This document shows, one piece after another, positions 1-21,925 of a stretch of DNA of 24,979 nucleotides (within the stretch, counting starts at the first letter, position 1; every line of letters begins with the position of its first letter). The notes under the pieces were generated by a model. That model did no database searches, was not told the origin of the DNA, and saw only the letters and a program-made list of their open reading frames with translations. Source of the stretch: a virus; the IMG/VR virus record IMGVR_UViG_3300009311_000060, positions 1-24,979 of that record; one strand, given 5' to 3'. The position numbers were made by a program, and so were the translations under genes.

Positions 1-1
1 G

Positions 2-124
2 TGTGCGGAGTGTGGGTCGTTGTTCGTGAAGACGGACGGGAGGCAGCGGTTCTGTCCTGGTGAGAAGGGGAGTAGATGCGGGGCGAGGGCTAGGCAGCGT
101 CGAAGGAGGGAGCGCGATGGGTGA
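2..124 (+). CDS. 3' end of a small zinc-finger protein (partial)
   Basis: The gene is cut by the left edge of the window; its last 40 codons are read in frame 2 and stop with TGA at 122-124. The visible part begins CAECGSLFVKTDGRQRFCPG, followed by another cysteine, giving a CxxC pair and a later C-x-C-like pair typical of a small zinc ribbon. It ends in a very basic tail (ARARQRRRRERDG). The family is not identified; such proteins are common in phage accessory regions and often bind nucleic acid. Its stop lies 8 bases inside the next gene, which suggests translational coupling. The start codon is outside the window. Confidence 0.6.
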   Translation, partial: CAECGSLFVKTDGRQRFCPGEKGSRCGARARQRRRRERDG

Positions 125-485
125 GACGGTGAGTTCGGATCGAGTTGTAGAAGTTCAGTGGCCGTTCTGCGCTCAGTGTGGTGACGTTGGTCGTCCTGCG
201 AGCCATCTGAAGCATCTTTACGTCTGCGACGACTGCTGTCGTGCTTGGCCGAAGGATGGCGATTGGCGTCATCCAGAGCGCCTGAACCCTCGCTGTCCGG
301 TGTGTGGGGAGGATGAGGCTGAGATGGGGGCAAACTGGCAGTACGGTGAGTCGTTGCCGTGGTCTTCGCACCATCCCAAGATGGCCTTCCTTGCCAGATG
401 CCGCCGTTGCAAGCACCTGTGGGAGATTGAGCCTCTGAGCAAGCCGTGGGAGAAGAAGGCTCGTGACCTTGAGGAGCAGTGCTGA
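117..485 (+). CDS. Hypothetical protein with two zinc-ribbon-like CxxC pairs of pairs
   Basis: This 122-residue protein has unknown function. The start ATG at 117 is preceded by AAGGAGG at about 103-109 with good spacing; the same frame is open to position 60, but nothing supports an earlier start. Four CxxC motifs are visible: C18/C21, C37/C40, C60/C63 and C95/C98, enough for two zinc ribbons. The protein is otherwise rich in Trp and charged residues, with no membrane segment. It overlaps the partial gene upstream by 8 bases and the next gene by the TGATG at 483-487, so the three probably share a transcript. A DNA- or RNA-binding accessory role is inferred from the metal sites only. Confidence 0.75.
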   Translation: MGETVSSDRVVEVQWPFCAQCGDVGRPASHLKHLYVCDDCCRAWPKDGDWRHPERLNPRCPVCGEDEAEMGANWQYGESLPWSSHHPKMAFLARCRRCKHLWEIEPLSKPWEKKARDLEEQC

Positions 486-664
486 TGCCGACGAACGTCG
501 AGGGCGACTTACAGGCACTCATTGAAAAGCTGCTTCAGGACCGTCGCGTGTCTGAGTTCAAATACGAGGTTGAAGGGGAGGTCGGCTGGTCTACGACCTA
601 CTCGCCCGCCAAGCGTCTGCTCTGCGAACACGTCAAGTTGGAAATCACGCTGGAGAAGGACTGA
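485..664 (+). CDS. Small hypothetical protein, 59 aa
   Basis: The ATG at 485 overlaps the preceding stop (TGATG), with GAGGAG at 471-476 as ribosome binding site. A GTG at 479 in the same frame is a weaker alternative. The protein begins MPTNVEGDLQALIEKLLQDR, an amphipathic helix, then has beta-like segments (FKYEVEGEV, HVKLEITLEKD). There are no cysteine pairs or membrane segment. It ends in a TGATG overlap with the next gene. No family recognised; it is supported by coupling, G/C-rich third positions and a ribosome binding site. Confidence 0.65.
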   Translation: MPTNVEGDLQALIEKLLQDRRVSEFKYEVEGEVGWSTTYSPAKRLLCEHVKLEITLEKD

Positions 665-1215
665 TGCCGATTAGAGACCCTGAGAAGCGGAAGGCTGCTG
701 CGCGGGCGCGGATGAAGCGTTTGCGAGAGGAGCGACGGGCGAACAGGGCGAACGCGGGCGAACAGCCAAAAACGCGTGTTCGCCCGGAAAAACGTGCGCC
801 CGGATGTTCGCCCGAAACCGACGTGATTGGGCGTCCGATTCGGGTCATCGAATGGACGGATGCGGAGGGTGTTGAGCGGGTGACGCGGTATGTTCCTCCT
901 CGGGCTGATTGGAAGGGTATTGGGTGGTGCCGCGATTGCAATACGGGGGTCGGCTCAGGGAACACAGTGTGCCGGACTTGTCGGATCGATCCTGAGCGGA
1001 AGGATTTGCCGCCTGTGGGTGAGGTGAAGCCTGAGCGATGGCCGCAGGTGGTTCCGATGTCTGCCGACTTCCTGAAGCCTAACCAGAACCTTTCAGATCG
1101 GGAAAGGGCGGCGACCGTCCAGAAGCTCCTTGCTGACCCGAAAGGCAAGGAGTTGGCCAAGCACATTCGCTGGGGAGTCGGCGGTCCGACGATAGCGGAG
1201 ATTGGGAGGATGTGA
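664..1215 (+). CDS. Basic zinc-finger hypothetical protein
   Basis: This 183-residue protein starts at an ATG overlapping the previous stop (TGATG, 662-666). The N-terminal 30 residues are strongly basic and helical (MPIRDPEKRKAAARARMKR), a layout often seen in small phage DNA-binding proteins. Residues 28-52 look like a low-complexity linker; the DNA encoding it carries a nested inverted repeat (736-814). A compact CRDC...CRTC zinc site lies at C89, C92, C103 and C106. The C-terminal third is helical with no known motif. Function unknown. It lies in the small-gene cluster upstream of the terminase, so a packaging-associated or regulatory role is possible but unproven. Confidence 0.75.
   Translation: MPIRDPEKRKAAARARMKRLREERRANRANAGEQPKTRVRPEKRAPGCSPETDVIGRPIRVIEWTDAEGVERVTRYVPPRADWKGIGWCRDCNTGVGSGNTVCRTCRIDPERKDLPPVGEVKPERWPQVVPMSADFLKPNQNLSDRERAATVQKLLADPKGKELAKHIRWGVGGPTIAEIGRM
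736..814. repeat. Nested inverted/direct repeat of decamer CGGGCGAACA inside a gene
   Basis: The decamer CGGGCGAACA occurs at 736-745 and 755-764. Its exact reverse complement TGTTCGCCCG occurs at 777-786 and 805-814. An additional eight-base copy, GGGCGAAC, lies at 746-753. The inner pair forms a perfect 10-bp stem with a 12-base loop; the outer pair forms a second perfect 10-bp stem around almost the same centre. It lies in the linker-coding part of the 664-1215 gene. The half-sites CGAAC/GTTCG recall actinobacterial LexA boxes, but the spacing (14 rather than 4) does not fit. It could be an operator, replication or packaging site, or an RNA structure. Confidence 0.8.
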
Positions 1216-1442
1216 TGCCATATCGGGACCATCTCAGCGAGTTGGTGGAGCAGGTCCCTGCTGGCGAGGTTTGGAGTTGCTTCGTTCTGCACGACGATTG
1301 GTGCCCATGCGAGCCGTGCGTCTGTGACCCTGACTTCGTGACACGGCCCTATCCAGTTGACCCTGAGGGCCGAGAGATGTTCCTACTCGCAGACCCAGAT
1401 CAAGCCTTCCTCGAAGTCAAGTTCAAGACCACCGAGCGGTGA
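1215..1442 (+). CDS. Small cysteine-rich hypothetical protein
   Basis: This 75-residue protein starts at the ATG at 1215, which overlaps the preceding TGA (TGATG); a GTG at 1212 is in frame. GGGAGGA at 1204-1210 serves as ribosome binding site. The core HDDWCPCEPCVCDPDF places C30, C32, C35 and C37 in a tight cluster, with C22 nearby, suggesting a metal-binding knuckle. The rest is acidic. It is probably cytoplasmic, with no signal or membrane segment. Similar His-Asp-Asp/Cys clusters occur in small unannotated phage proteins as far as I recall, but I cannot assign a function. Confidence 0.7.
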   Translation: MPYRDHLSELVEQVPAGEVWSCFVLHDDWCPCEPCVCDPDFVTRPYPVDPEGREMFLLADPDQAFLEVKFKTTER

Positions 1443-1457
1443 ACGAGTGGTGAGAAG

Positions 1458-1580
1458 ATGAAGGAGTGGGGAAGGCTGTCGGGTGACGAACGCATGGCCT
1501 CGGTGTTTGGGTACGTTAGCCTTCTCTGCTGGATTGCTGCCTTCGTCGCCTTTGGGATATGGCTGTGTCTTGAGTGGTGA
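1458..1580 (+). CDS. Putative 40-aa single-pass membrane protein
   Basis: ATG at 1458, stop TGA at 1578-1580. The N-terminal 12 residues are charged (MKEWGRLSGDER), followed by one long hydrophobic stretch from about residue 14 to 38 (containing FGYVSLLCWIAAFVAFGIW). A weak ribosome binding site (GGTGAGAAG) lies just upstream. It fits end to end between its neighbours. It is a candidate small membrane protein such as a holin-like or superinfection factor, but no lysis enzyme lies nearby and the function is unknown. Confidence 0.55.
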   Translation: MKEWGRLSGDERMASVFGYVSLLCWIAAFVAFGIWLCLEW

Positions 1581-1589
1581 GGTGAAGGG

Positions 1590-1800
1590 ATGAAGTTCTG
1601 GTTCCGAGTTGTCATGTGGTGGCTGGACCTCAAGTTGCTCCGCATCTACCCGAAGTGTCGCACAGACCGCAGCGGCGTGGTACCAGCACGTCGTGGGCAT
1701 GGGGTGCCGCATGTCGTGCAGATACCTTCGGGGATTCTGGGCGCTGATTGTGGAGGCCCAAGAGATGCGGCCTGCGGTCTGTAACGGGGGCGGGTGGTAA
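1590..1800 (+). CDS. Small hypothetical protein, apparently frameshifted
   Basis: The ATG at 1590 follows GAGG (1580-1583) and opens a frame beginning MKFWFRVVMWWLDLKLLRIY. Read straight on, it stops at 1782-1784 after 64 residues, but third-position G/C falls from about 88% over codons 1-24 to near 50% afterwards. The +1 frame takes over from about 1663 with more than 80% G/C at third positions and encodes AAAWYQHVVGMGCRMS, RYLRGFWALIVEAQEMR and a stop at 1798-1800. The simplest reading is one gene of about 69 codons with one extra base near 1655-1665, either a sequencing error or a real mutation. The function is unknown; it is rich in Trp and basic residues with possible membrane-associated helices. 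Confidence 0.5.
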
Positions 1801-1840
1801 GCGGCAGGGACGTGACCCACTAAGGCCGACCTGCCCGCCC
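1788..1840 (+). other. Long-loop inverted repeat in a gap
   Basis: GGGCGGG (1788-1794) is an exact 7-base complement of CCCGCCC (1834-1840), with 39 bases between. It overlaps the end of the frameshifted gene and leads into the largest poorly coding stretch of the window (1801-1985). Stem quality is moderate and no U-run follows. It could be a weak termination or processing structure. Confidence 0.3.
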
Positions 1841-1868
1841 TCAGTCAGCATCTAGCGGTGTTGGCGGC

Positions 1869-1985
1869 TTGGACCTGAGCGTGGTGCTGCTTCCGATTCG
1901 CAAACGGCAGTTCCTACGCAGATGGCGACACAGTGAGTGGGGGAATCGGCGGGCCGTCCCGACCCCCGCACCGCCCGTGGAGTAG
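1869..1985 (+). CDS. Doubtful 38-aa reading frame
   Basis: A TTG at 1869 (or GTG at 1881) opens a frame ending with TAG at 1983-1985, reading LDLSVVLLPIRKRQFLRRWR and then a Pro-rich basic tail. About three quarters of third positions are G or C, which is compatible with coding. No clear ribosome binding site precedes it, and a strong hairpin (1939-1967) lies inside it. It may be a small basic protein or simply chance in a structured non-coding gap. Confidence 0.25.
   Translation: MDLSVVLLPIRKRQFLRRWRHSEWGNRRAVPTPAPPVE
1939..1967 (+). promoter_or_regulatory. GC-rich stem-loop upstream of the 1986 gene
   Basis: GGGGG (1939-1943) pairs with CCCCC (1963-1967). After a two-base bulge (AA), TCGG (1946-1949) pairs with CCGA (1959-1962), leaving a 9-base loop. 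Nine G-C-rich pairs sit 18 bases before the next start codon. No U-run follows, so a classical intrinsic terminator is unlikely; a processing or attenuating structure is possible. Confidence 0.4.
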
Positions 1986-2225
1986 ATGATGGTCGCGCCG
2001 AAGTTCTCGTTAGTGCAGGCTCATTCCGTGGCGTTTCATGGCGGCGAGTCGTTCCCGATGCGGCAGGCCGTGACGTTATGTGCGTGGGTCTGTGACGAGT
2101 GCTTCAGCGAACCTGATGTAGAACAGACCATCGAGGGCATCATGGCCTTCTTGCAGAGCACCCCGCTGGACGAACAACCCGGAGTCATTTGCACTGACCG
2201 AGAGACACGTTCTTGGCGAGGGTGA
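1986..2225 (+). CDS. Hypothetical protein, 79 aa
   Basis: Two adjacent ATGs (1986 and 1989) follow GGAG at 1979-1982; the second has the better spacing. The sequence starts MMVAPKFSLVQAHSVAFHGG and has a single CDEC motif (WVCDECF) near residue 37, then a helical segment (VEQTIEGIMAFLQ). One CxxC alone is not a full zinc site, although C32 and C69 could contribute. Function unknown. It follows the structured gap at 1801-1985 and precedes a -10-like box. Confidence 0.55.
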   Translation: MMVAPKFSLVQAHSVAFHGGESFPMRQAVTLCAWVCDECFSEPDVEQTIEGIMAFLQSTPLDEQPGVICTDRETRSWRG

Positions 2226-2246
2226 AGGATGAAGACTGATGTGGAG

Positions 2247-2252
2247 TAGAAT
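2247..2252 (+). promoter_or_regulatory. -10-like box TAGAAT before the terminase group
   Basis: TAGAAT lies in the 66-base gap between the 1986-2225 and 2292-2453 genes, in the context GTAGAATGT, which recurs at 4149-4157. No -35 match at 16-18 bases is visible. Actinobacterial-type promoters often rely mainly on the -10 (TAnnnT), so it is a plausible promoter for the 2292-4147 group. Assignment is by motif and position only. Confidence 0.3.
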
Positions 2253-2291
2253 GTCCGACTAGCCGCGGCGACCCCGCGCAAGGAGTCGAAC

Positions 2292-2465: not shown

Positions 2466-2648
2466 GTGAGCGACGGAAACATCCGAGTCTTCATCTCCAA
2501 CCCGCGCCCGTGGGAAGAGACACAGACGCCCCTCGAACGCCTGAAGAACCGTCGTGCCCACTGGGAACGAGAGCGCGCCCGCATCGACGAGCAGATCGCG
2601 GTGCTTGATCGCGAGATCGAGACGCTGGAGGAACGTCAGGAAGACTGA
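2466..2648 (+). CDS. 60-aa coiled-coil protein coupled to terminase
   Basis: The GTG start at 2466 follows TAGGAG (2454-2459). The N-terminal half is extended (SDGNIRVFISNPRPWEE); residues about 23-58 form a highly charged helix with heptad-like Leu/Ile spacing (LERLKNRRAHW...IDEQIAVLDREIETLEER), a probable coiled coil. Its stop overlaps the terminase start (TGATG, 2646-2650), so translation is probably coupled. Its position directly before the large terminase raises the idea of a packaging partner, but it is much shorter than usual small terminase subunits and lacks a visible DNA-binding domain. Confidence 0.65.
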   Translation: MSDGNIRVFISNPRPWEETQTPLERLKNRRAHWERERARIDEQIAVLDREIETLEERQED

Positions 2649-4147
2649 TGGACTTCGGATTCATCGTCGGCATCTCCGAGGTCATGGGCTGGATATGGAC
2701 CAAGGCCCAGGCCCGTATCCTCGAAAACCTCACGCGATTCGTCTTGCTCTGCGGTGGCAGGCGTGCTGGGAAAAGCCTCACCACCGCCCGCTGGATGTTC
2801 CTTCAGGTCGTCCGCACTCTCATGGAATGGGAAGATGCGGGCAGGCAGCGCGTGCAGGGCGGCATCATCCCGTTCTGGCTTGTGGGAAAGTCCTACGAGG
2901 CCACGGAGCAGGAGTACAACTACCTCGCCGACGACCTTGAGGAACGGTTCGGCACCGACTTCGTGCATGTGACCCGCCGCAACATCGGGCCGAACGAAAT
3001 CACCATCCGAGTCTCCGAGAAGCCGAAACTGGACTTTGTGGTCCGCACCAAGTCGGCACAGGACGAAGGCTCGCTGGAGGCCGAGGCTGTCGGCGCGGTG
3101 GCCGTCTGTGAGGCGGCGCAGATCAGCTACTCGGCGTACCTGCGGCTTCAGGGCCGTATCGCACAGCGCCGAGCGCCCATCCTGCTGTCGGGATCGCTGG
3201 AGGACGACTTCGGCTGGTACAACGACCTGATGGTGGACTGGGGTCACGAGAGGGCGTGGAACGAGGAAGATTCCCGCTCGTGGGTGATTGAGTCCGAGAC
3301 CAACCAGTTCGACTTCCCCGAGGGAGCGAACGACCCCGAGCTTCAGCGCCTTCGGAACTCGATGTCCGAGGACGACTTCAACCGGATGTTCATGGGGCGT
3401 CCGGCACCGATTCGGGGTCTTGTCCATCCCACATTCCGCAATACCGTCCACGTCCAGAACGTTCCCTACATCCCCGGCGAGGATGTGTGGCTGGCCATCG
3501 ACCCCGGCATCTCCGGCCTTGAGAACCGCGGCTCGGCCTACGCAGTCCTGTTCTGCCACATCGTGGACGTTCAGGGCATCCACAAGCAGTACCGCGTCTT
3601 CGACTCGATCTACGTGGGGAATGTGGATGAGGATGTCATCATTGAGACGGCGATGAACAAGCCGTGGTGGGGCAAGGCTGACATCTACGGCGTCATCGAC
3701 CGGGCGGGCAAGAACCGCACCAACTTCAAGGAGGCTGCGACCTCTCATGCGACGTGGCGGAACCTCGCTGGACTTCGGCTGCGCTACTCGAAGAAGACCA
3801 TCCTGCTCAGGGACGCTCGCCAACGTTTCAACGCCATGCTCAGGGTGCATGGGACTACCGGCCAGCCTGGCCTGGTAATGGACGCGGAGCGGTGCAAAGG
3901 TTTACAGTCTGAGTTGGGTGGATGTGCGAACCCGCTTCGTCCCGATCTGTCGGATCAGGTTTACCGCTGGGAACTGGACTCCGACGATATGATTATGGGC
4001 AAGGACCCGCGCGACCGTTTCTGCGACTGCATCAAGGCGGCGTACTACCTTGGCTGGGACCGTGAAAAGCACGTCTATCCCCGCAACATGCAGCGCCAGT
4101 CTGCGACCCGCAGGCGTCGGACTCTGAGAACTCCCGTGCGCGCGTAA
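2648..4147 (+). CDS. terL: Terminase large subunit (DNA packaging ATPase/nuclease)
   Basis: This 499-residue protein has the two-domain layout of phage large terminases, the motor that translocates DNA through the portal and cuts concatemers. The Walker A motif GGRRAGKS is at residues 36-43. The Walker B-like strand AVAVCEAAQ carries E155, with Cys at the place usually held by Asp. A coupling-type Ser-Gly-Ser follows at 181-183 (LLSGS). The C-terminal RNase H-like nuclease shows D285 (WLAIDPG), D351 (GVIDRAG) and a late acidic pair D456/D460 (DRFCDCIKAAYY). Length matches the family. The basic tail (TRRRRTLRTPVRA) may contact portal or DNA. It is translationally coupled to the gene upstream and precedes the portal by 17 bases. 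Confidence 0.95.
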   Translation: MDFGFIVGISEVMGWIWTKAQARILENLTRFVLLCGGRRAGKSLTTARWMFLQVVRTLMEWEDAGRQRVQGGIIPFWLVGKSYEATEQEYNYLADDLEERFGTDFVHVTRRNIGPNEITIRVSEKPKLDFVVRTKSAQDEGSLEAEAVGAVAVCEAAQISYSAYLRLQGRIAQRRAPILLSGSLEDDFGWYNDLMVDWGHERAWNEEDSRSWVIESETNQFDFPEGANDPELQRLRNSMSEDDFNRMFMGRPAPIRGLVHPTFRNTVHVQNVPYIPGEDVWLAIDPGISGLENRGSAYAVLFCHIVDVQGIHKQYRVFDSIYVGNVDEDVIIETAMNKPWWGKADIYGVIDRAGKNRTNFKEAATSHATWRNLAGLRLRYSKKTILLRDARQRFNAMLRVHGTTGQPGLVMDAERCKGLQSELGGCANPLRPDLSDQVYRWELDSDDMIMGKDPRDRFCDCIKAAYYLGWDREKHVYPRNMQRQSATRRRRTLRTPVRA

Positions 4148-19934: not shown

Positions 19935-21925
19935 TGCCTGAGCGCATCACCCAAGAGGGTGCCATCGCCATAGACGGGAAGTTCTACGAACTCCGCGACA
20001 AGGTGCGCTGGGGCATCGTCTCGGGCAACCCGCCGAAGTTCTCTACGGGTGCCTACACCGAGGACACGAACCCGAGAGCGTCAACAGTCTACTGGGACGA
20101 TCTGAGCGGCGGCATCGGTGCAGAGGACGTTGATCCGAAGACGCCCGAGCGACACAAGCGGGCGTGGTACGGCCCAGCGAATCTGCGGCACCCTGGGCAG
20201 GTGATTCTACCCGGACGTGTTATCGCCACGGCACAGGCGACGACCTCGGATGTGGACGCTATCTGCGACTACAACAACACCATCTACAAGTGCCACGGCA
20301 CAACCGTCTACGAGTACGAATACGTCACCGACACAAACACCTCGTCGCGGACCCTGCTGAACGCAGCCAAGGACTGGGCAAGGGGTCTGGTCGGTGGTAC
20401 GGACACGCTGGTCATCGCTACTGGTGCAGAGGTGGACTACCTTCAGAGCACGACGTGGGCGCGGAACACCACGGACATCGACTACGTGACGTTCCTGAAC
20501 GAGTTGCTCTGGGGGCTAGACGCAACGACCGGGCAACTCTACTACACCGACGATCTCTCAGCAGCGTGGTCAAGCGACGCCGTGCTTCAGACGCCAGCAG
20601 ACTACGCCACGAGTCTGTTCACCGTCTGGGATGGTGAGCGCAGGCGCATAGCAGTCGGCACCCGTATCGGCATCTACCTGCTGGACGACGAGCATCGACG
20701 GTTCGAGCCTGCCTCGTTCTCTGAACTTCCCTACCACCCGGACGGTGGACTCGGGCTGGACGTGTGGCGTGGTGCGGCAGCCTACGCAGCGGGTTCGGGG
20801 ATGCACCTCGTCGGGTTCAGCGACTCAGCGCCTGTCGGCAAACTGGACGTGGCGATGGGGCCAGACCGCGACCACGGCCTGCCATCGAACAGGCGCGGCA
20901 CCATTGTTGACGTAGCTGCGTCTCACAACGAACTGTTTGCCGCGATGGACGGCACAAAGGGCCTCGGGTTCTGGGAGACGACCTATCAGGTCGATCAAAC
21001 CCACGAGCAGTTCTACGGTTCCACGGGTGCTGGCACAAGCCGCATATCGACTTTCGGCATCAAGCGAGGATACTCGACCGTGCTCGGCTGGAACGAGGCG
21101 GCATGGCGACGGCATAACAACTCTGGCGGCTGGCAGGTGACGTGGGAAAGCGAGTCTACTGCCCTTGCCATCACTGCTATCACCGTGTCCGACGCCTACA
21201 GCCGCTACAACCTCTGGATTGGTGCGAACCACAACGTCTACTACCTGTCCCTGCCGACAGACGTGGTGAACCCTCTGAAGGTCACGACATCGGAGTTTGA
21301 CGACTCGACAGTCCTGTACTACCCGCGGTTCAGCAGCGGAATGCCGAACGAGGACTTCCTAGCTCTGTCCTTCGTGGCACAGACGACGAACCCGTCCACG
21401 AGCGAGACGATGAAGTTGCAATACGCCACGGACTACGCCGACCCCGAGGTATCCGCCAACCTGAACGATGTGACGTTCGCCAGTGCGGCCTCGGCAACCA
21501 TCTCGGCATCCGGTCGGGACAGAGCGTATCTCGGCACGAACCGGGAAGGCGTGGTAGCGCAGGCCGTTCAGCCTGTTGTCACCCTGTCTCGTGGTGCAGG
21601 GAACCTGAACAGTACCCCGATTCTGAGGCTGCTGGGCATGGCCTATCGGGTGCGCCCGCGTAGGATGTACGGCATCCGGGCACCGCTGAAGATCACCGAG
21701 CGGTCTCCTGACGGGCGGGATGCGAAGACGCAGCGGGCTGATCTACGAGCGGCGATGAACAACACCACGCTGCTTGAGGTGACGTGGCGGGACGACGACA
21801 GCAACGTTGAGAACTACTACATGGACCCGGAGGACCTCATCACCGAGGACGAAAGCGGACGGCAGTACGAGACCGATCAGGTGGACTTCGTAGCCGTGGA
21901 ACCCGAGCAGAGCACGAGCCGCTGA
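19934..21925 (+). CDS. Probable beta-propeller tail hub/nozzle protein
   Basis: This 663-residue protein starts by TAATG overlap with the gene before it. Repeated blade-like units, each a strand pair with a Gly/Asp turn (DAICDYNNTIYKCHGTTVYE, DTLVIATGAEVDYL, NELLWGLDATTGQLYYTDD, RRIAVGTRIGIYLLDDE, NELFAAMDGTKGLGFWE, NLWIGANHNVYYLSL), suggest a beta-propeller over about residues 95-440. A beta-sandwich-like C-terminal region follows, with RRMYGIRAPLKI and LLEVTWRDDDSN. In short-tailed phages, propeller-containing nozzle proteins cap the tail below the adaptor, which matches the gene order here. An alternative is a general tail surface protein. No enzymatic motif is visible. Confidence 0.65.
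   Translation: MPERITQEGAIAIDGKFYELRDKVRWGIVSGNPPKFSTGAYTEDTNPRASTVYWDDLSGGIGAEDVDPKTPERHKRAWYGPANLRHPGQVILPGRVIATAQATTSDVDAICDYNNTIYKCHGTTVYEYEYVTDTNTSSRTLLNAAKDWARGLVGGTDTLVIATGAEVDYLQSTTWARNTTDIDYVTFLNELLWGLDATTGQLYYTDDLSAAWSSDAVLQTPADYATSLFTVWDGERRRIAVGTRIGIYLLDDEHRRFEPASFSELPYHPDGGLGLDVWRGAAAYAAGSGMHLVGFSDSAPVGKLDVAMGPDRDHGLPSNRRGTIVDVAASHNELFAAMDGTKGLGFWETTYQVDQTHEQFYGSTGAGTSRISTFGIKRGYSTVLGWNEAAWRRHNNSGGWQVTWESESTALAITAITVSDAYSRYNLWIGANHNVYYLSLPTDVVNPLKVTTSEFDDSTVLYYPRFSSGMPNEDFLALSFVAQTTNPSTSETMKLQYATDYADPEVSANLNDVTFASAASATISASGRDRAYLGTNREGVVAQAVQPVVTLSRGAGNLNSTPILRLLGMAYRVRPRRMYGIRAPLKITERSPDGRDAKTQRADLRAAMNNTTLLEVTWRDDDSNVENYYMDPEDLITEDESGRQYETDQVDFVAVEPEQSTSR

Follow-up and report, generated by a model that had tools for sequence, protein, structure and literature searches.

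The locus and its repeated words

The stretch analysed here (the window, 24,979 nucleotides) is a piece of the complete circular phage genome G001 (44,387 bp) that begins at position 20282 and crosses the ends of the record, which closes into a circle via a 119-bp terminal overlap; such an overlap is compatible with a circularly permuted, terminally redundant genome, although assemblies of cos phages can show it too. The window starts just right of the gene for the small terminase subunit (TerS; G001:19436-19969; PHROG terminase small subunit, E=2.8e-4) and contains the gene for the large subunit (TerL). Between the two, a small gene was found to carry an array of short repeated words in both orientations. 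The features of this region are as follows.

664-1215, plus strand: array-bearing gene (ORF), encoding a 183-aa basic protein with an Arg-rich N-terminal helix, a linker and a CxxC...CxxC motif
679-753, plus strand: DNA of the N-terminal helix, residues 6-30 (AlphaFold pLDDT 70-87; homolog alignment)
736-745, plus strand: word copy F1, CGGGCGAACA
746-753, plus strand: word copy F2, partial (8-mer), GGGCGAAC
755-764, plus strand: word copy F3, CGGGCGAACA
757-834, plus strand: DNA of the predicted disordered linker, residues 32-57 (AlphaFold pLDDT <50)
777-786, minus strand: word copy R1, exact reverse complement of CGGGCGAACA
793-802, minus strand: word copy R2, imperfect inverted copy, CGTGCGCCCG on the plus strand, 8/10 match
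805-814, minus strand: word copy R3, exact reverse complement of CGGGCGAACA
928-981, plus strand: DNA of the zinc-ribbon-like motif CRDCNTGVGSGNTVCRTC, residues 89-106 (translation)
2648-4147, plus strand: TerL (PHROG_2, E=1.9e-13)

The array begins 72 bp inside its gene and consists of three forward words followed by three reverse ones. Five of these six copies had been placed correctly in a sequence-only reading of the locus; the sixth, R2 at 793-802, was absent from it, and with it the fold prediction contains three concentric stems. The exact decamer CGGGCGAACA, searched on both strands of the whole window, occurs at four sites, all in the array, and the search of the 44-kb genome that the same reading had suggested returned these four alone (G001 positions 21017, 21036, 21058 and 21086), with no copies scattered elsewhere. 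Allowing one mismatch gave 7 sites in 25 kb against an expected 3.0 +/- 1.65, so the three one-mismatch sites lying elsewhere are what background would give. In a scan for clusters of at least three copies of any 8-mer, in both orientations, within 130 bp, the array was the sole match in G001, and among 5000 synonymous codon shuffles of the gene none reached its five copies, the best having four. These results bear out the earlier view that chance is an unlikely source, and the array is a real feature of the gene. Like iterons, it packs multiple copies of a short word into a small region and is unique in its genome.

The encoded protein had been described beforehand as a basic zinc protein with a linker, upstream of the terminase, which agrees with the CxxC...CxxC protein encoded 1.4 kb before TerL. 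Its helix (residues 6-30) is the part conserved among homologs, with the pattern MPxRDPEKR..A.R..M...R, and the 3' end of the helix DNA already contains the first two words. No family match was found in Pfam, PHROG or NCBIfam profiles. Searches of an annotated phage collection with the proteins of the window and of its two homologs (see below), together with two composite peptides, gave no usable match, and peptide-pattern scans of viral and genome contigs returned mostly HNH or chance matches. The mean pLDDT of the AlphaFold model was 52.5; the model was used for helix and disorder only, and a search by fold would have no meaning.

Arrays and word turnover in homologous genes

Two distant homologs of the gene were identified, one (L007:252-569) reached through its TerL, which is 61% identical to that of the window, and the other (L022:7664-7951, on the 42-kb contig G003) reached with a DNA pattern for the N-terminus of the gene. 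All three proteins open with MPxRDPEKR. The L007 gene, upstream of TerL, encodes 105 aa beginning MPTRDPEKRREATRLRMRRLR and has the zinc-ribbon-like motif with its four Cys retained; that of L022 begins MPYRDPEKRREAARESMRKRRQGLTMEEPLTPVPVNP, and its C-terminus FGVGGLTMGDIGR resembles WGVGGPTIAEIGR of the window protein.

Both homologs carry word arrays in their linker DNA: one copy of GGGCGTCACAT, four of ATGTGACGCCC and two of ATGTGCGCCC in L007, and, in L022, one of GGGGTTAAC and two of GTTAACCCC in different frames (also written as one GGGTTAAC and two GTTAACCC). The word differs from phage to phage, being TGTTCGCCCG in the window, ATGTGACGCCC in L007 and GTTAACCCC in L022; the three can be aligned as related forms (GGGCGAACA, GGGCG(T)CACA and GGGTTAACA) yet are not identical. 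In all three cases the first forward word has its start somewhere in nucleotides 62-74 of the gene, and the reverse words come later. By the cluster scan, the L007 array is the sole cluster in 5 kb and the L022 array one of two in the 42 kb of G003. Since synonymous shuffles matched the array in 54 of 5000 cases for L007 and 36 of 5000 for L022, which is a moderate result, the weight rests on the coincidence of the three arrays.

The words of the window array are translated as RAN, AGEQ, VRP, RAP and CSP. Between them they use every reading frame and both orientations, which shows that selection acts on the nucleic acid and not on the peptide. The array would be placed in linker DNA because a disordered peptide there tolerates almost any sequence. 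A nucleic-acid function accommodated by the linker was what the sequence-only reading had proposed, and the use of three frames, the predicted disorder and the arrays in two distant homologs favour it. The comparison of homologs turned out differently from the pattern which that reading had set out as a test: the word is not kept at synonymous sites and changes between phages, whereas the presence and layout of the array persist. That distant relatives keep an array at the same spot with a changed word probably marks a landing site for a protein, serving the start of packaging or of replication, and not a chance occurrence. A recognition site at the DNA level, whatever its role, is very likely, and repeat-rich linkers in phage proteins, such as VTPVTP or VRP/CSP stretches, can be DNA sites instead of protein motifs.

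Further searches for related loci gave the following. The only near record of the window was 100% identical to it, and a gene with the MPxRDPEKRR start was absent from 80 loci whose TerL is related to that of L022. L008 and L010 each have exact inverted decamers, which were taken as chance because they are solitary in the stretches examined. In L007, the core of the window word, GTTCGCCC, occurs twice at 701-752, within the short intergenic gap that immediately precedes TerL; the array of L007 itself uses a different word.

The terminase neighbourhood and the candidate roles of the array

The order TerS (or a gene of that type), array gene, TerL was observed in all three phages, which is the location that a pac site would have. 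In L007, a TerS-like fragment homologous to the C-terminal part of the G001 TerS (E=1e-13) ends 3 bp before the gene. In G003, a DUF5681 gene abuts the array gene upstream, at the TerS position, and the gene after it was read as TerL, supported by terminase-annotated matches; these terminase genes look unrelated to those of G001 and L007. Searching the annotated phage collection with the G001 TerS returned nothing usable. The early genes of G001, including a CHC2 primase and an AAA_25 helicase, lie about 10 kb off on the opposite strand, and the early region also encodes a C5-cytosine DNA methylase (G001:6081-6782, minus strand, outside the window; Pfam DNA_methylase, E=5e-6).

Because the array lies between terS and terL in three phages, our tentative first choice is a recognition site for packaging start or terminase loading, similar to pac or cosB, with a replication origin ranked second and an operator third. 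The array would be a double-stranded-DNA site of six 9-10 bp words bound by a putative phage DNA-binding protein, for which the candidates are the product of the gene itself, through its Arg-rich conserved N-terminal helix, and TerS. Protein binding, the identity of this reader and the packaging role are what we infer here.

Known sites offer precedents, which are a further reason for this choice. In phage P1, TGATCA/G words are clustered in coding DNA (pacA) directly before the terminase partner gene; these are hexamers around a mapped cleavage site within the TerS gene itself, whereas the words of the window measure 9-10 bp and occupy a small gene distinct from TerS. The pac site of SPP1 overlaps the coding sequence of gene 1, terS, according to a section of PMC6316719, and that of phiH1 lies inside terS according to a section of PMC6210493; both are packaging-start sites that overlap terS coding DNA. 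They differ from the window array in that the reader is TerS, and an inverted word array of the window's layout is not described in the cited sections (PMC6316719, PMC6210493). The choice is also favoured by the lack of an AT-rich element near the array and by a separate replication locus in G003. There, the linker of a putative replisome organizer (G003:7190-7480, L124) carries CAACTCG and AACGGTT repeats flanking a short Arg-rich segment, and its gene adjoins one for an IstB/DnaA-like ATPase.

Several observations weigh against a packaging site. In G001, 1.05 kb separate the array from TerS upstream and 1.83 kb from TerL downstream, and other small genes are interposed. L026, a fourth protein that shares the N-terminus, speaks for the packaging reading by being encoded directly before TerL, but it has no obvious array. 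The support comes from three homologs, with the moderate shuffle results of L007 and L022. In addition, in lambda, P22 and P4, the detector that finds the array recovers replication iterons and not pac sites: the scan returned the ori iterons of lambda (gene O), the ori of P22 (gene 18) and, in P4, the iterons of both ori and crr along with the attP arms; P22 gave two further sites. In P1 pacA, the annotated cleavage sites have TGATC hexamers on either side, which the 8-mer detector would miss.

The same calibration speaks for replication iterons, the second reading, which would make the array either an origin or, by analogy with SPP1 oriR and P4 crr, a secondary one, with a phage initiator binding to it in a coding linker just as the lambda ori sits in gene O; we regard this as unlikely, though less so than the readings that follow. 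It is the sole iteron-like array in G001, and SPP1 oriR is located in the late region, as stated in a section of PMC6316719. The origins of lambda (gene O) and P22 (gene 18), together with SPP1 oriL, which a section of PMC6316719 places in gene 38, likewise are protein-binding repeats in phage coding DNA. However, those genes are replication initiators with an AT-rich element nearby, whereas the array gene is no replication gene and neighbours the terminase; none of the recognisable replication genes is adjacent to the array, the primase and helicase being on the other strand, and the lowest G+C content of any 60-bp stretch in window positions 1-2260 is 48%, with no AT-rich stretch to serve as an unwinding element. 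Moreover, G003 and L102 have their word repeats in the linker of a putative replisome organizer instead.

The word also resembles known iterons of P4. The type I iterons of its ori and crr (GGTGAACA) share 10 of 11 bases with the word, occur in both orientations and follow each other in 9-10 bp steps; the ori iteron CGGGTGAACAG differs from CGGGCGAACAG of the window at one base, and crr consists of two words 9 bp apart and then inverted ones. A match as good was given by 7 of 200,000 random 11-mers, a figure to be read in the light of the comparison having been chosen after the fact. The P4 iterons differ in being non-coding and read by the alpha primase-helicase, and no primase-helicase of this type was found among the G001 proteins scanned.

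An operator, bound by the product of the gene or by another phage regulator and controlling its own or late transcription, appears rather improbable. Autoregulation is common among phage DNA-binding proteins, the array falls in the opening part of the late operon, and at another locus, L079, a small putative ribbon-helix-helix gene has GTAATAC words around and within it. Yet the array is intragenic and not intergenic, lying past the gene start, and six words exceed what an operator usually needs.

An RNA structure, in which the three concentric stems would act in the mRNA on translation, stability or processing, was among the options of the sequence-only reading and is very unlikely. The fold in the window is strong (-51.3 kcal/mol on the plus strand and -54.2 on the minus strand; z-scores -4.8 and -6.1), but any inverted repeat folds, and the complementary strand folds better still. 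In the homologs the option is weakened by unbalanced copies (one forward against six reverse in L007, one against two in L022) and by plus-strand z-scores that fall to -1.6 and -2.6, the three sequences being highly diverged; the direct copies are left unexplained as well. Slippage and an RNA hairpin were both judged unlikely. That the repeats arose by mutation in an unconstrained linker and have no function is the least probable reading, since, although disordered linkers accumulate repeats and L007 shows two 12-nt tandem steps, inverted copies with unequal and unrelated spacers are no product of slippage, and, against a background of about one cluster per 38 kb, three homologs that share little else each carry one, at matching gene positions.

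Whichever role applies, the array is close in kind to the iterons and pac sites known to be embedded in coding DNA. What is new is the gene family, its position in the terS-terL interval, and an array that persists while its word turns over. One possible, though doubtful, generalization is a portable cassette, in which the conserved helix would bind words in the linker part of its own gene and the word would drift with its reader. If so, each phage would direct its packaging or replication machinery by an address of its own, and the arrays of the unrelated phages L089, L090, L102, L107, L049 and MetMV described below would be further instances. Packaging-start and origin sites have been mapped in few phages; if arrays in terminase-adjacent coding linkers mark such sites, these addresses could be predicted in uncultured phages from sequence, and one could follow how a site and its reader change together.

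Word arrays at other phage loci

Word clusters were also surveyed at the 80 loci with a TerL related to that of L022, together with L007 and the Methanosarcina virus MetMV. Clusters in both orientations were located mainly upstream of TerL (15 versus 2); leaving out ascertained and duplicate loci, the counts were 12 versus 2, again biased upstream (p=0.0017 for the lengths searched). Since some of these arrays are probably origins of replication, their excess on the upstream side is by itself no evidence for packaging.

One of them, at L089:340-1140, comprises about 17 words resembling TTGGCCAGTTTT, some forward and some reverse, which extend for 800 bp across fragmentary ORFs upstream of TerS and TerL. 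Other arrays upstream of TerL contain GTTACA / TGTAACA words (L090:2500-2800), GGTATCAnnnnTGATACC words (L049:3056-3163) and TATCAACA words (L039:1749-1970; MetMV). In L102:1413-1595, GTAACG words lie upstream of TerL in the coding linker of a putative replisome organizer, for which no profile match was found and whose assignment comes from reading the translation. In L107:1917-2151, CGGACAGTT words follow a putative primase-helicase gene, again read from the translation, upstream of TerL. A long tandem array at L047:296-650, with units of about 16 nt (TTGCCTAAGCTCACGT...), is no inverted-word array; it is a coding tandem repeat that encodes LGNDVSLGNYVRLGN repeats on the minus strand. Downstream of TerL, at L079:6917-7168, the GTAATAC words stand before and inside the putative ribbon-helix-helix gene and are perhaps the binding sites of its own product.
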